Shown: positions 3,907 to 32,145 of the stretch, piece by piece | Position numbering within the stretch: position 1 is the first letter of the stretch | How the letters are laid out: each line of letters opens with the position of its first letter | Source: an uncultured Rhizobiaceae group bacterium | GTDB taxonomy: Bacteria > Pseudomonadota > Alphaproteobacteria > Rhizobiales > Rhizobiaceae | DNA: 32,145 nt | Direction: 5' to 3' | NCBI GenBank assembly: GCA_937944075.1 | Contig: CALDZZ010000025.1 | Location: 1 to 32,145, forward strand | Translations under genes and position numbers: made by a program | The notes under the pieces: model-generated | What the model was told of the DNA's origin: nothing | Database searches by the model: none | Seen by the model: only the letters and a program-made list of their open reading frames with translations

Positions 3907-4392
3907 ATGAAGATCCGTTCGAAGTTATTATGTATATTTTCAGGGGTAGCTTTATCAACGCTATCAGGCGCAGGGATGGTAATGGCTGCGACCGAGGCAA
4001 AGCCGGTGGAGATCAAAGGTGAAATCATTGATACCTGGTGTTATCTTTCCGGTGTCATGGGTGGCGAGGATGCGGTAGTTGGTTCTGCTCATCACACTTG
4101 CGCCCTGTGGTGTGCTGCCGGGGGCATTCCTGTGGGTGTGCTGGATGAAGACGGCCAGATTTATATGGTACTCAAGCTGAAGGGCGAGGATGCCATCGCC
4201 AAGACTGACAATATCATGGAAATCCAGTCAGATCAGATTACAGCCAAGGGAATGCATTATGTCCGTGACGGGGTGAATTATCTGGTTGTGGAAGATGTGA
4301 TTGCCAATGAAGGCATTACAAACCTAAATCATGAAGATTATGGCTCGGTTCCGCCGAATTCTTTCCCGAAAAACTATCTTGGCAATCAATAA
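3907..4392 (+). CDS. Exported hypothetical protein with conserved Cys / CxxxC motif
   Basis: 161 aa; signal peptide-like N-terminus (…AGMVMA|ATEA); IIDTWCY … HHTCALWCAAGG; SD-like AGGAG at 3897-3901. Confidence 0.8.
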   Translation: MKIRSKLLCIFSGVALSTLSGAGMVMAATEAKPVEIKGEIIDTWCYLSGVMGGEDAVVGSAHHTCALWCAAGGIPVGVLDEDGQIYMVLKLKGEDAIAKTDNIMEIQSDQITAKGMHYVRDGVNYLVVEDVIANEGITNLNHEDYGSVPPNSFPKNYLGNQ

Positions 4393-4404
4393 GGAGATTT
4401 TACC

Positions 4405-4998
4405 ATGCAATCCATACTTAAAGGTCTAACCCTTGGTACTTCTCTTCTTTCAGCTCTGGCTTTGTCGAGCGTAACTGCTTTTGCTGCTGATTTTTCCAAA
4501 GGTAGCAAGGCAAAGGATTTCGGGCTGAATGAAGCAGTGCAATCCACTTTTTCTGCCAAGGTCGTTGACCTGCTGTGTGAAGTTGCCGGAAATTGCGCAG
4601 ACAATTGTGGTGACGGAAACAGGCAATTGGGTCTGTTGCGAGATGCGGATAACAAGTTGATTGCCGTTTTGAAGAACGGTCAGTTTTCCTTTAATGGTGC
4701 AGCTGAGGATTTGCTTCCCTATTGCAACAAGAAAGTGGATGTGGACGGCATCATGGTTGGTGATGCAGAAGAACATAATACACAATTTTACATGGTTCAG
4801 TTTATCCGCGAGGAAGGTGCTTCTGAGTGGAGCAAGACAAATCGCTGGACCAAGGCATGGGCCGCCAGAAACAAGGATGCAAAGGGCAAGGGCCCATGGT
4901 TCCGGCGTGACCCAAGAGTTCTGAAACAGATTGAGGCGAGTGGTTACTTTGGTGTGGGCAAGGAAGCTGACATCAAATATGCGAAAGAGAATCAGTAA
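4405..4998 (+). CDS. Exported hypothetical protein with CxxxC motif, divergent paralog of the preceding ORF
   Basis: 197 aa; signal peptide-like N-terminus (…SVTAFA|ADFS); VVDLLCEVAGNCADNCGD; AAGGAG SD-like sequence upstream; last base overlaps next start. Confidence 0.8.
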   Translation: MQSILKGLTLGTSLLSALALSSVTAFAADFSKGSKAKDFGLNEAVQSTFSAKVVDLLCEVAGNCADNCGDGNRQLGLLRDADNKLIAVLKNGQFSFNGAAEDLLPYCNKKVDVDGIMVGDAEEHNTQFYMVQFIREEGASEWSKTNRWTKAWAARNKDAKGKGPWFRRDPRVLKQIEASGYFGVGKEADIKYAKENQ

Positions 4999-5645
4999 TG
5001 TGGTACCAAGTTTCCCGCTTCGGGCTTTCACTCATGGCTGCAACTGTCATGACAGTTTCCGCACTTGCTCATGATGGTGTAGTTCATGACAATTTAAGTG
5101 ACGCGCTAAAACATCAGGAGGAAACCTCTCCAAACACACTTGGCTTTCCTGAAGTCAAGGGAGGGGACTTTGAGCTTGTTGATCACGATGGAAACATCCG
5201 AACATCAAAAGACCCTGCCGGCCGATACCAGATGATTTTCTTCGGTTATGCAAACTGCAAGGCGATATGTTCGGTAGCGCTTCCCAGAATGGCCGCAGCA
5301 ATTGATATGCTCAAGAAGCAGGATATCGAGGTAACACCCCTTCTCATTACGGTTGATCCCGAGCGCGATACGGTTGACAACATGAAAGAAGCACTTGTGC
5401 ATCACCACAAGGACATGGTGGGACTTACCGGTTCCCAGGCTCAACTGGAAGTTGCCTACAAGGCCTTCAATGTTGAAAAGTCTCTTGTTTACGAACATCC
5501 TGAAGAAGGGCCTATCTATGCGCATGGCTCATTCATTTATCTTGTTGATGGTCAGGGTGGCTTCAAAACGCTTTTACCGCCAATTTTAAGCCCGGAGCGA
5601 ATGGCAGAAGTTGCCAAAGGCTATATTGCAGGTGAAAAATCCTGA
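4998..5645 (+). CDS. SCO1/SenC family protein
   Basis: 215 aa; FFGYANCKAICSVALPRM (CxxxC), LITVDPERDTVDNMKEALVHHH, conserved His in IYAHGSFIYLVD; signal peptide-like N-terminus. Confidence 0.9.
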   Translation: MWYQVSRFGLSLMAATVMTVSALAHDGVVHDNLSDALKHQEETSPNTLGFPEVKGGDFELVDHDGNIRTSKDPAGRYQMIFFGYANCKAICSVALPRMAAAIDMLKKQDIEVTPLLITVDPERDTVDNMKEALVHHHKDMVGLTGSQAQLEVAYKAFNVEKSLVYEHPEEGPIYAHGSFIYLVDGQGGFKTLLPPILSPERMAEVAKGYIAGEKS

Positions 5646-5770: not shown

Positions 5771-6133
5771 ATGCAAGCAGAAAAAAAATTACAAGATACC
5801 AATTTTGAAGAGACGCCTGCCCTGTCACAAGCGGAAGTCATGCAACGGATCATGTCAAATCCCGCTGATGCTGTTGAAATCGGGAGTAAGCTTCCGGCAA
5901 TTCAAAGAGCACGTATTGCGCAATTTTGCTATGGGCGTGTACACATGCGTGAGTTGGGGCTGAGACTTGCAAGCACTTGTGACTTGATGACCTTGAAAGC
6001 TGCCTTTGGTCGGGGTGGGGAAGTTGTTTTCAAGCAATCCAGAGACGTGGATGATACCTTGAGCAAGTTACGCACAACAGCAGGAAGTCAGTCACCAAGA
6101 CCAATTACGCTCAAGGGCAGCATTACCGGCTAA
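5771..6133 (+). CDS. Conserved hypothetical protein
   Basis: 120 aa ORF in an otherwise unexplained gap; no recognised domain. Confidence 0.6.
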   Translation: MQAEKKLQDTNFEETPALSQAEVMQRIMSNPADAVEIGSKLPAIQRARIAQFCYGRVHMRELGLRLASTCDLMTLKAAFGRGGEVVFKQSRDVDDTLSKLRTTAGSQSPRPITLKGSITG

Positions 6134-23208: not shown

Positions 23209-25773
23209 TTACTTGGCAGTTTTCAATGCTTTCAGGATATCTTCTTTTCCGTAAGGTTTCTGCAAGACATCTATTCCCGCAAGCTCTTTCTTGATTTCTG
23301 AAAGATCACCGTACCCTGAGGCAAATACGAACGGGATTTTCATTTCCAGAAGCTTTTCGGCAACCGGTTCACTTGTTTCGACGCCCAGGTTGAAATCAAG
23401 AAGGGCAAAGTCGATTGCCTCATTTTCAAGAATTGTGAAAGCCTGCGCAACATTGCTTGTCATGTGAACGTTTTGTGAGCCCAGGGCTCTGAAATGATCC
23501 TCTGCATCCAGAGAGATAATCATGTTATCTTCTACGATAAGGACAGTGTCAGGCGTTTGCATACGGGCTTCAGCTTGTTTGATATCGGGGTCAGAGGCAA
23601 CTACGGGCTTGGTGAGCGTATTGGTTATGTAATTTTCAGGAATGACAAATTTTGCCGTGACACCGGATACATTGTAACTGATTTCGGCAGAACCTCGTAA
23701 TTCGTGCGGTATTGATCTTTCTATGATCGTAGTGCCAAAGCCTCTGCGTTTTGGGGCTTTTACCGGTGGGCCACCCACTTCCATCCAGTGAATGACAAGG
23801 CCGCCGTCCTGGTCGCGTTCCAGGGTTATGTCAAGGCGGCCCCTGTTGTCACAAAGTCCGCCGTATTTGACCGAGTTTGTAATCATCTCATGCATAACCA
23901 AAGCCAGAACGGTGAACGCCTCAGGGGCGATAAGAACATCACTTCCCTTGATGATTATGCGCTCGTTATTGTCAGTCATATAGGCTGACGCTTCATTATA
24001 AATGAGCTCACTTAGCGAGGCTGGGTTCCAGTTCTCCTTGGTGATTTGATCATGCGCCAGAGCCAATGCATGGATGCGTCCACCCACAACTTCTGTAAAG
24101 CTTGCAATATCCTTAGAATTGTCCTTGCTCTGGTTGATCAGCCCGCGAATCAGGTTCAGGATATTTCGCACGCGGTGATTAAGCTCAGCGATCAGGAGTT
24201 CTTGTTGCTCTTGTGCCTTGCTGCGTTCCTTTACAGCATTGTCGGTTAGTCGAAGTACAACTTCCAGCAAGGTGACCCGCAAATTGCTTGCGATGCGAAT
24301 TTCTTCTTCGCTCCAGTTTGCGCATGATCCTTTTACAATTTCACGCCAGCTTTCAAAACTTTTGCGCGGTGTTAAGCGGATTCCATTGGGGCCAAGCTTT
24401 GCAGGTTTTTCCGGGTTTCCTGCCCAGTTAACCGATTTAACAATTTCCCGCCTGTACAGAACAAGGTAATCGCGTGGTGAACGTGATATTGGTATGGCGA
24501 GTATGCCTGCTGCAACATCGACGAATTCAGCTGCTGGCGGGTATTTTTCAGACAGGTTTTGAGTTGAATACACACTGCCTTGTGCAGTGGTGTTGAGGAA
24601 CGAAAGCATGCCCTGAAACTGTTCGCTATTGGGGCCATCGCCTTGTAACATATATTGACCATTTGCCCAGATGGATACCCCATCATAAGGGATGGTACTG
24701 GCAAGGGCATTGCTGATGACTTCAAAATTATCGGCAATTGAATTGCCATCAGCAAGTTGAGTCATGATTTGGTCATGTAATATCTGACCCCGCATGGCCA
24801 CTTCTGCCCGCTCTTCGCTTTCCTTTTGATCCAGCACATAGGAAAACATTTGAGCAAACAGTTCGCTCATGCTTCTGATTCCAAAGCCCACATTGCGTGG
24901 CGTAGTATTATGGCATGCAAACAGGCCCCATAGTTTCCCCCTTACAATGATGGAGATCGATAGGGAGGCTTCTACGCCCATATTCTTTAGATATTCAAGA
25001 TGTATGCTGGAAACTGCACGAGTGATACTCAAGCTCAAGTCCAGCGGTTCGTTTTCGGCGCCGAGAACAGGCAAAATGGGAACGCCCTCATCGTTGACAT
25101 CACCGATAATTCTCAAAAGGCTTCGCTTGTAAAGTGCCCTTGCCTGTTTGGGTATATCAGATGCCGGGTAACGCAAATTGAGAAACGATGACATGTTGGG
25201 TTGCCTGGCTTCAGCAATTACCTCACCCGTATCATCAGGCAGAAAACGGTATACCATCACACGGTCGAAATTCAGAATGGCCTTGAGTTGTCGTGCCGCA
25301 AGCTGGCTCAATTGTTCAACGCTTGAAGATTGCTCAATACGCGAGATCATCGGTTTTATGTAATTAAGATAATCACGGTCAGAGGATGAATCCGTTTTTT
25401 CAAACTCTATGATAATTGACCTGCCTGAGCGATGAACTGCAACGTCGAAATTCCGGTCATCATCAAACAGGGCGACCGCAAACAGTCGCTCCATGGAGTC
25501 AGCTGAATTGAGTAATTGAAGTCTTCCTCTTATATCATGCAAGGCCTGGTCACTGATGACGCCTACCAGTGAAGAGCCGACCGCCAGTTTATCGTCCACT
25601 TGCAAAAACGCATGCGCATTTTGTGACAGGTGATTTACAATCCAGTCTGGGGTTACGGATATTAAAACACCAAAGGATTGAATTTTCGAAAGGATGTGAA
25701 TTGGCTCACGATCGCATGATGTCAAGTCGACATGATTATCAGTGGTTGCTTTGGTATTATGCGATTTGGACAA
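23209..25773 (-). CDS. bphP: Bacteriophytochrome: PAS-GAF-PHY sensor, HWE-type histidine kinase, C-terminal receiver
   Basis: SCDREPIHILSKIQSFG (bilin Cys), YPASDIPKQARALYKR, SSIHLEYLKNMGVEASL, LWGLFACHN, PHY tongue WAG and PRKSF, ELNHRVRNILNLI and WMEVGGPPV (HWE kinase), REC VLIVEDN…LLDFNLG. Start taken as TTG at 25773 with AGGA upstream; ORF track start is 25830. Confidence 0.92.
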   Translation of the reverse strand: MSKSHNTKATTDNHVDLTSCDREPIHILSKIQSFGVLISVTPDWIVNHLSQNAHAFLQVDDKLAVGSSLVGVISDQALHDIRGRLQLLNSADSMERLFAVALFDDDRNFDVAVHRSGRSIIIEFEKTDSSSDRDYLNYIKPMISRIEQSSSVEQLSQLAARQLKAILNFDRVMVYRFLPDDTGEVIAEARQPNMSSFLNLRYPASDIPKQARALYKRSLLRIIGDVNDEGVPILPVLGAENEPLDLSLSITRAVSSIHLEYLKNMGVEASLSISIIVRGKLWGLFACHNTTPRNVGFGIRSMSELFAQMFSYVLDQKESEERAEVAMRGQILHDQIMTQLADGNSIADNFEVISNALASTIPYDGVSIWANGQYMLQGDGPNSEQFQGMLSFLNTTAQGSVYSTQNLSEKYPPAAEFVDVAAGILAIPISRSPRDYLVLYRREIVKSVNWAGNPEKPAKLGPNGIRLTPRKSFESWREIVKGSCANWSEEEIRIASNLRVTLLEVVLRLTDNAVKERSKAQEQQELLIAELNHRVRNILNLIRGLINQSKDNSKDIASFTEVVGGRIHALALAHDQITKENWNPASLSELIYNEASAYMTDNNERIIIKGSDVLIAPEAFTVLALVMHEMITNSVKYGGLCDNRGRLDITLERDQDGGLVIHWMEVGGPPVKAPKRRGFGTTIIERSIPHELRGSAEISYNVSGVTAKFVIPENYITNTLTKPVVASDPDIKQAEARMQTPDTVLIVEDNMIISLDAEDHFRALGSQNVHMTSNVAQAFTILENEAIDFALLDFNLGVETSEPVAEKLLEMKIPFVFASGYGDLSEIKKELAGIDVLQKPYGKEDILKALKTAK

Positions 25774-26323
25774 ACGTTTTTTCCTGCTCAACAAGTTTGT
25801 AAGAATCAAAATATAGATCAAATGCAGCAAGAGCGCCTTTAACTAAGACACTATAATCCTCAGGGGTATTTATGCTGTTTTTGATTTCCCTGACCACAAC
25901 TGGCCAGTAAGATCGCATGTCTGCCGACTGCAAGTATGTTCTGGCTGACAGGGTTGCGGGGTCGCTGGATGCGGAAACCCTTTTCAACAAGACTGCTGCG
26001 CCAAAATGCGCGCCGGAAACCACATAGGCGAGGCCAGCAAGATTTGAAAGTTCAGGCAAACAGGAGAGTTTGGCAATAACGGGTTTTTCACCAAGCGCCA
26101 GAATATCTTGATGGATCAGGCCGGATTGCGCGGGCGGGGGTGCAAAGGACGAGCCAACCTCTGCAAAATGCTTTTCTATCGCCGATAATGCAATAAAATG
26201 AGCCTTCAGGAAAATGCCATACTCGTCACGCTTTGAAATATCGAGCCTGCTGAACAAATCATCGACTTGCTGATGCTTGCAAGCCGTGTCTTGTCTAAGT
26301 TGCAGTCTGTAATTTTTTGTCAT
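25757..26323 (-). CDS. bphO: Biliverdin-producing heme oxygenase
   Basis: 188 aa; LRQDTACKHQQVDDLFSRLD (proximal His), LAGLAYVVSGAHFGAAVLLKR; overlaps the start of bphP. Confidence 0.88.
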   Translation of the reverse strand: MTKNYRLQLRQDTACKHQQVDDLFSRLDISKRDEYGIFLKAHFIALSAIEKHFAEVGSSFAPPPAQSGLIHQDILALGEKPVIAKLSCLPELSNLAGLAYVVSGAHFGAAVLLKRVSASSDPATLSARTYLQSADMRSYWPVVVREIKNSINTPEDYSVLVKGALAAFDLYFDSYKLVEQEKTFVQIA

Positions 26324-30315: not shown

Positions 30316-32145
30316 CTAAGATCGCTGTAGTTGAGCTTCAGCTTGGGAAATAACTAAATTTATTGCTGAACGTTCCAAGTCTGGTGGATAGCCAAATTTT
30401 TTGAGTATACGGCGCACGAGAATGCGTAATTTTGCTCTGGCACTTTCTTTCAAATGCCAATCTACTGTTACATTCTTTTTGAGCTGATTGACTAATTCTT
30501 GAGCTATTACTTTTAATTCATCGTTTCCCATAACTTCGATGGCACTATTGTTTTCTGATAGTGCATCATAGAAAGCCAACTCTTCTTGGCTCATATTTAG
30601 ATCTTCGCCACGGCTAGAGGATGCCTGAACTTCTTTAGCAAGATTGATCAATTCTTGGATCATTTCTAAGCTTGTGATTGCATTTGCATGATACCGTGCA
30701 ACGGCTTCAGCTAAACGATCAGAGAACGCTTTTGCCTCGACAATGTTTTGTTTCTGCCTATTTTTGATTTCTCCAGCTAGCAGTTTTCTTAGTGCGTCTA
30801 ATGCTAGATTTTTATGCTTCATATTTTGTATTTCTGATAGGAACTCATCTGATAACACAGAAATTTCTGGTGATTTCAGACCAGCTGCTTCTAAAACATC
30901 TACTATACTTGCGTCAGCTATCGCCTCTGAGATTAATTGTCCTATGGCAAACTCTTTGTCTCTCTTGCTTAAACCAGATTTTGGTGATGATTTGGTAAGT
31001 GCTGCTTTCACCGCTTGGTAAAAACCAATTTCGTTTTTGTTCTGTTGTGCATAATCAGTAGCGGAAGCCAATGCGAAAGCTTTTGACAAAGCGCCAATCA
31101 GTCCTGAATAGTAATTCAGCGCTTTCTTTTTTTCTGTTTCGTTATTGCATTTGTCAGCGTTTGTTTTTTGTTTCCCTAAGGCCCATTCAATCGCTGATGC
31201 TAGTGTTTGTAATCTTTCAGTAGGTGATCCAGTTATTCCAAGAGAAAGATCAAAGCCATCGTAGAAGATACGGCATTTTTCGACATATTCTTTTAATGCA
31301 GCTATAGCTTCTTCTTCGCTAATGCCAGTTTTGTCTCTATCTGTTTGCGTGTAATTTTGAAGTGCATTCTTTAGGTTTTGGCCAATCCCGATATAGTCGA
31401 CAACAAGTCCGCCAGGCTTGTTTTTAAACACACGATTTACTCTTGCAATGGCCTGCATTAGTCCATGCCCACGCATTGGTTTATCAATATACATCGTATG
31501 CATAGAGGGGGCGTCAAAACCTGTTAGCCACATATCCCGCACGATAACGAGTTTTAAAGGGTCACTATTATCCTTTGCTCGTTTTGCCAGATTGTCACGA
31601 CGTGTTTTATTGCCAATGTGCTGTTGCCAATCGAGAGGGTCGGATGCTGAACCCGTCATGACGATCTTTACGACACCGCTCGTATCATCTTCCGAATGCC
31701 AATCCGGTCTTAGTTTGATAATGAGATTATATAAATCGACGCAAATTCTGCGGCTCATACAAACGATCATAGCCTTACCGTCCAAGGCTTCAATTCGATT
31801 TTCAAAATGGTTCACAATGTCTTCTGCAACGATTTCCAGGCGGTCGCTAGCGCCAACAAGTCGTTCGACAGAACTCCACTTAGCCTTTGCCTTTTCTTGC
31901 TCTGAGATGGTTTCATCATCGAATAATTCATCGACTGCAGCATCGATTTCCGGGAGTTTTTCCTTTTCCAGTTCAACGCGCGCCAGCCTGCTCTCATAGT
32001 AAATCGGAACCGTTGCTTTGTCTTCTACGGCGCGACTGATATCGTAGATGTCTATATATTCTCCAAAGACAGCTGGAGTGTTTACATCTGCGCTTTCAAT
32101 CGGAGTTCCTGTAAATCCGGCGAATGAAGCGTTGGGCAAGGCTTG
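30316..32145 (-). CDS. hsdR: Type I restriction endonuclease subunit R (HsdR), C-terminal portion, cut by window edge
   Basis: [79 protein letters not shown] (SF2 helicase motifs V/VI of HsdR); the frame is open to the right edge. Confidence 0.93.

Follow-up and report, generated by a model that had tools for sequence, protein, structure and literature searches.

We identified a three-gene cassette whose first two products, ORF1 and ORF2, are never-described, mutually related exported proteins and whose third is an SCO1/SenC-family protein. Together, the three probably form a small copper-handling (or thiol-redox) module that is unrelated to the usual cytochrome oxidase assembly genes. Within the window (the whole stretch of DNA that was analyzed, 32,145 nucleotides), the cassette is laid out as follows:

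3907 to 4392, plus strand: ORF1, an exported-looking 161-aa protein of an unnamed family with a predicted OB fold
4039 to 4113, plus strand: site region of ORF1, with the codons of Cys45 (4039-4041), His62 (4090-4092), Cys65 (4099-4101), and Cys69 (4111-4113)
4393 to 4404, plus strand: 12-nt gap between ORF1 and ORF2 with a Shine-Dalgarno-like AAGGAG
4405 to 4998, plus strand: ORF2, an exported-looking relative of ORF1 (197 aa, family unnamed) with a predicted OB fold and C-terminal helices
4576 to 4725, plus strand: site region of ORF2, with the codons of Cys58 (4576-4578), Cys64 (4594-4596), Cys68 (4606-4608), and Cys107 (4723-4725)
4998 to 5645, plus strand: cassette SCO, a 215-aa SCO1/SenC-family protein of the cassette lineage (PF02630 match)
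5256 to 5525, plus strand: SCO copper triad, with the codons of Cys87 (5256-5258), Cys91 (5268-5270), and His176 (5523-5525)

A preliminary description of this DNA had pointed to the tight packing of the genes, the signal-peptide-like N-termini of all three products, a CxxxC motif in each, and the SCO1 identity of the last, and all four points were confirmed. The genes share the plus strand, separated by a gap of exactly 12 nt and then joined by an overlap of exactly 1 nt between the ORF2 stop and the SCO start (TAATG at 4996 to 5000). Judged by eye, all three products appear to carry Sec-type signal peptides (MVMA/ATEA in ORF1, TAFA/ADFS in ORF2, and SALA/HDGV in SCO), that of SCO reading as a cleavable signal without a lipobox. 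The motifs are CALWC in ORF1 (residues 65 to 69), CADNC in ORF2 (64 to 68), and CKAIC in SCO (87 to 91). The third protein matches PF02630 (SCO1-SenC) with an E value of 1.1e-40 (139 bits versus a cutoff of 22.8), and its nearest solved relatives are SCO proteins. Because the cysteines are invariant in ∼100 loci and the gene order is kept, the layout is not a product of chance. Promoter and terminator scans returned chance-level results only, and no copper-operator-like sequence was recognized by eye upstream of ORF1.

Neither ORF1 nor ORF2 matched any family when the single proteins were compared with Pfam and NCBIfam, and no family was found in Pfam for 67 and 72 members of their respective alignments. 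A PDB sequence-profile search likewise returned nothing significant for either protein, and a literature search of open-access text found no paper on this cassette. With Pfam and NCBIfam empty, the pair does not fall into a characterized family with another function. The preliminary description had read CxxxC in each protein. The motif is present and its cysteines are conserved in orthologs, but the conserved sets are larger, namely Cys3-His-Met in ORF1 and Cys4 in ORF2. In the ORF1 alignment, His62, Cys65, and Cys69 are invariant (100/100 rows), as is Cys45 in every row with a letter at that position (99/99), and Met51 is near-invariant, being kept in essentially every row. For ORF2, the corresponding counts are 100/100 for each of Cys58, Cys64, and Cys68 and 99/100 for Cys107. 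The odd number of conserved cysteines in ORF1, together with the invariant His and Met, would argue for a metal site over disulfides alone.

Profile comparison (hhalign) of ORF1 with ORF2 gave a probability of 95% (E = 2.6e-8), and other alignments gave 80% and 89%; control comparisons with SCO reached only 0.1 to 0.3%. By this measure, ORF1 and ORF2 are homologous to each other. Both are predicted to be OB-fold barrels from AlphaFold models with mean pLDDT values of 83.7 (ORF1) and 93.7 (ORF2); the leading Foldseek matches of both models were mostly OB folds, a resemblance at the fold level only with no match at E ≤0.001. In the ORF1 model, a helix placed between strands 1 and 2 carries the HxxCxxxC stretch. 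Among metal or heme handlers, CusF, an OB-fold Cu(I) chaperone, as well as NlpE and CcmE, resemble ORF1 and ORF2 in having an exported OB-fold domain (again at the fold level only), and NlpE appeared as a weak structural match to ORF2 in Foldseek. ORF1 and ORF2 differ from these proteins in their ligand pattern and have no sequence match to them; the CusF, CcmE, and NlpE families are absent from the Pfam matches of the 67 and 72 members.

Of the 61 genomes in a set of relatives, 16 encode both ORF1 and ORF2 and none encodes only one of them; the order ORF1-ORF2-SCO is kept in 16/16. The 16 comprise all 12 genomes of the window's genus plus 4 that belong to other families in its order, while the cassette is absent from 25/25 genomes of other genera in the window's own family within this set. 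Scanning every GTDB species representative retrieved 317 ORF1 relatives, and linkage was read in the best 80 loci. Since our own gene calling missed some genes in high-GC loci, adjacency was scored by tblastn and HMM matches. ORF1 is followed by ORF2 in 80/80 of these best loci, with SCO downstream wherever the contig is long enough (76/76). Co-occurrence with SCO, tabulated as the preliminary description had suggested, is complete in the 16 cassette genomes and in the testable loci among these 80, and the possibility that the three genes are not syntenic elsewhere was not borne out. Genes outside the three differ between lineages; the three therefore behave as one unit. Hosts are mostly marine alphaproteobacteria, and the scan loci include Litoreibacter, Roseovarius, Roseivivax, Filomicrobium, and Ahrensia.

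We also examined 19 further whole-genome stretches, 4 of them among the 16 cassette genomes, and found SCO in 15. Four genomes of a deeper lineage spanning two families (G141, G256, G348, and G349) hold ORF1-ORF2 without SCO nearby, one of the four contigs stopping 1.2 kb past ORF2. SCO is thus not obligatory in cis, and the pair is the core of the cassette with SCO as its usual companion.

No copper gene is constant in the cassette neighborhoods. The opgH/opgG/opgC-like outer neighbors in Litoreibacter track taxonomy and not the cassette. In Litoreibacter/Roseovarius-type loci (L067, L072, L083, L085, L100, and similar), rhodanese-like and esterase-like genes often follow SCO on the same strand. 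No plasmid records with the cassette were found, and no viral contigs were confirmed. One locus (L063) comes from a record titled Oceanobacillus sp. HTM 045 (Bacillota), in which the cassette sits in a stretch of 70% GC and groups with alphaproteobacteria; this assembly is probably mislabeled or contaminated.

The cassette SCO retains its Cys-Cys-His triad in 92/92 cassette sequences, and the inner residues of CxxxC vary (CKAIC, CPGIC, CEAIC, CQEIC, and others). A single branch with support of 100/98 splits these 92 from 31 other SCOs in the tree, by which the cassette SCO is a separate, dedicated lineage. The three cassette proteins show correlated pairwise distances (r = 0.78 to 0.84, partly through shared ancestry), as expected for joint inheritance. 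Given the sequence SALA/HDGVVH (window 4998 to 5072), the mature SCO may start with His; an AHDG-like start occurs in 24/92 cassette SCOs, and an extra N-terminal copper site is possible.

The preliminary description also noted that no cytochrome oxidase gene lies nearby. None was found among the main other ORFs scanned in the window, but this is weak evidence, since the genome (G000) encodes another SCO on a 12-kb contig (C223) that also has no oxidase gene. A COX1 search of 99 flanking loci found credible COX1-like genes within 10 kb in only 2, and a link to oxidase genes was rejected. It is nonetheless conceivable, if rather unlikely, that the cassette is an accessory set for assembling the CuA/CuB sites of an oxidase encoded elsewhere, with ORF1 and ORF2 in the role of PCuAC or TlpA. 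SCO and a small copper protein do cooperate in CuA assembly (PMC9145763), the genome that the window belongs to encodes a COX2, and those two loci do have a COX1-like neighbor. However, SCO, PCuAC, and COX2 are present in nearly all relatives with or without the cassette, so that routine CuA assembly is independent of it, and no oxidase neighbor is consistent across loci. The SCO/PCuAC/TlpA pathway (PMC9145763) resembles the cassette in pairing a CxxxC...His SCO with small periplasmic partners, but ORF1 and ORF2 match no PCuAC or thioredoxin family, and the window's genome encodes a separate SCO and a PCuAC alongside the cassette. Neither PF04314 (PCuAC; E ≤1, 67 and 72 members) nor PF00116 (COX2/CuA domain; ORF1, ORF2, and the same members) was matched.

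The account we prefer, tentatively and just short of calling it probable, is that the cassette is a self-contained periplasmic module whose SCO supplies the OB-fold pair with copper, keeps the pair reduced, or both. ORF1 (Cys3-His-Met) and ORF2 (Cys4) would present soft-metal ligand sets on exported OB-fold proteins, into which the cassette SCO would insert copper and/or whose cysteines it would keep reduced. Once loaded, the two proteins could carry copper through the periplasm, or act there as a copper redox pair, on behalf of a target encoded elsewhere. Speaking for this account are the linkage of the three genes, the near-invariant sites, the relation of ORF1 to ORF2, their predicted folds, the intact SCO triad, the separate SCO branch, and the correlated distances. 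Copper as the metal, its transfer from SCO to ORF1/ORF2, and the end target are all points that we infer. Counting against this copper module are the SCO-less pairs, the lack of a constant copper neighbor, and the fold-level nature of the Foldseek matches.

The nearest precedent for an SCO with a dedicated client is the mtoX-SCO1/senC-mauG operon of the copper methanethiol oxidase in Hyphomicrobium and roseobacters (PMC5739008), where SCO likewise shares an operon with a dedicated nonoxidase periplasmic protein. Unlike that operon, the cassette has no SBP56 or MauG, and ORF1 and ORF2 are small (predicted) OB-fold proteins. Neither the assembly that contains the window (87% complete) nor the window ORFs scanned yielded an SBP56. 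It occurs in 9/16 cassette genomes versus 5/45 other relatives; because it is absent from several near-complete cassette genomes (G004, G037, G042, and G046), SBP56 (methanethiol oxidase) was rejected as an obligate partner.

About as improbable as the oxidase-assembly role is a metal-free thiol-disulfide relay, in which SCO would act as a thioredoxin-like reductase with ORF1 and ORF2 as substrates or adaptors. Every conserved site is thiol-rich, SCO has a thioredoxin fold, and many Litoreibacter/Roseovarius loci have a rhodanese-like gene just 3′ of the cassette. Such a relay, however, would need neither His62 and Met51 beside the three invariant cysteines of ORF1 nor the copper His that SCO always retains.

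A distant homologue of ORF1 bears on the choice of metal. In 10/10 loci (L126 to L129 and L198 to L203), a protein of 250 to 400 aa with the Cys-His-Cys-Cys residues of ORF1 adjoins a ferric-reductase-like/Rieske membrane protein, a neighborhood that may point to metal or electron handling by this class of domain. The ORF1-like domain is C-terminal and unnamed in Pfam. Unlike ORF1, this protein is longer, with an extra N-terminal part, and has no ORF2 or SCO beside it in the stretches fetched; it and the cassette sometimes occur in one genome. This association and the existence of the pair without SCO in cis would fit a pair that holds a metal or cofactor other than copper (Zn, Fe, or heme) or transfers electrons, as the Rieske-linked paralogue might, with an indirect role for SCO, but this is the least likely of the alternatives, as a copper-triad SCO is closely linked in nearly all lineages and Sec-type export would disfavor a preassembled Fe-S cluster.

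Returning to the copper module, the earlier proposal that ORF1 and ORF2 are candidate partners in a periplasmic metal or thiol system gains from their lack of a family, their conserved cysteines, and their synteny; it stays a proposal, and SCO is not a fixed member in cis. A bolder extension, possible but doubtful, is that ORF1-ORF2 is a periplasmic copper pair of a new OB-fold class (multithiolate sites, that of ORF1 including Met/His and that of ORF2 being Cys4) that is matured by its own SCO and serves a copper-dependent redox pathway other than cytochrome oxidase in marine alphaproteobacteria. To our knowledge, few clients are known for SCO proteins outside cytochrome oxidase assembly. An SCO with a dedicated partner is a known kind of arrangement, and ORF1 and ORF2 are testable candidate clients. 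Here, a separate lineage of SCO is tied to two unannotated families across hundreds of genomes, cultured roseobacters among them, which makes the client question directly testable. Two conserved families that are blank in current databases would also gain a name and a working hypothesis.

Three other features of the window were recorded. Downstream of SCO, an unnamed 120-aa protein without a Pfam match (5771 to 6133) is conserved as a cassette neighbor in the window's genus alone. A Type I restriction R-subunit-like ORF (30316 to 32145) runs off the contig end, and a bacteriophytochrome with PAS_2, GAF, PHY, and HWE histidine kinase domains is encoded on the minus strand at 23212 to 25830.
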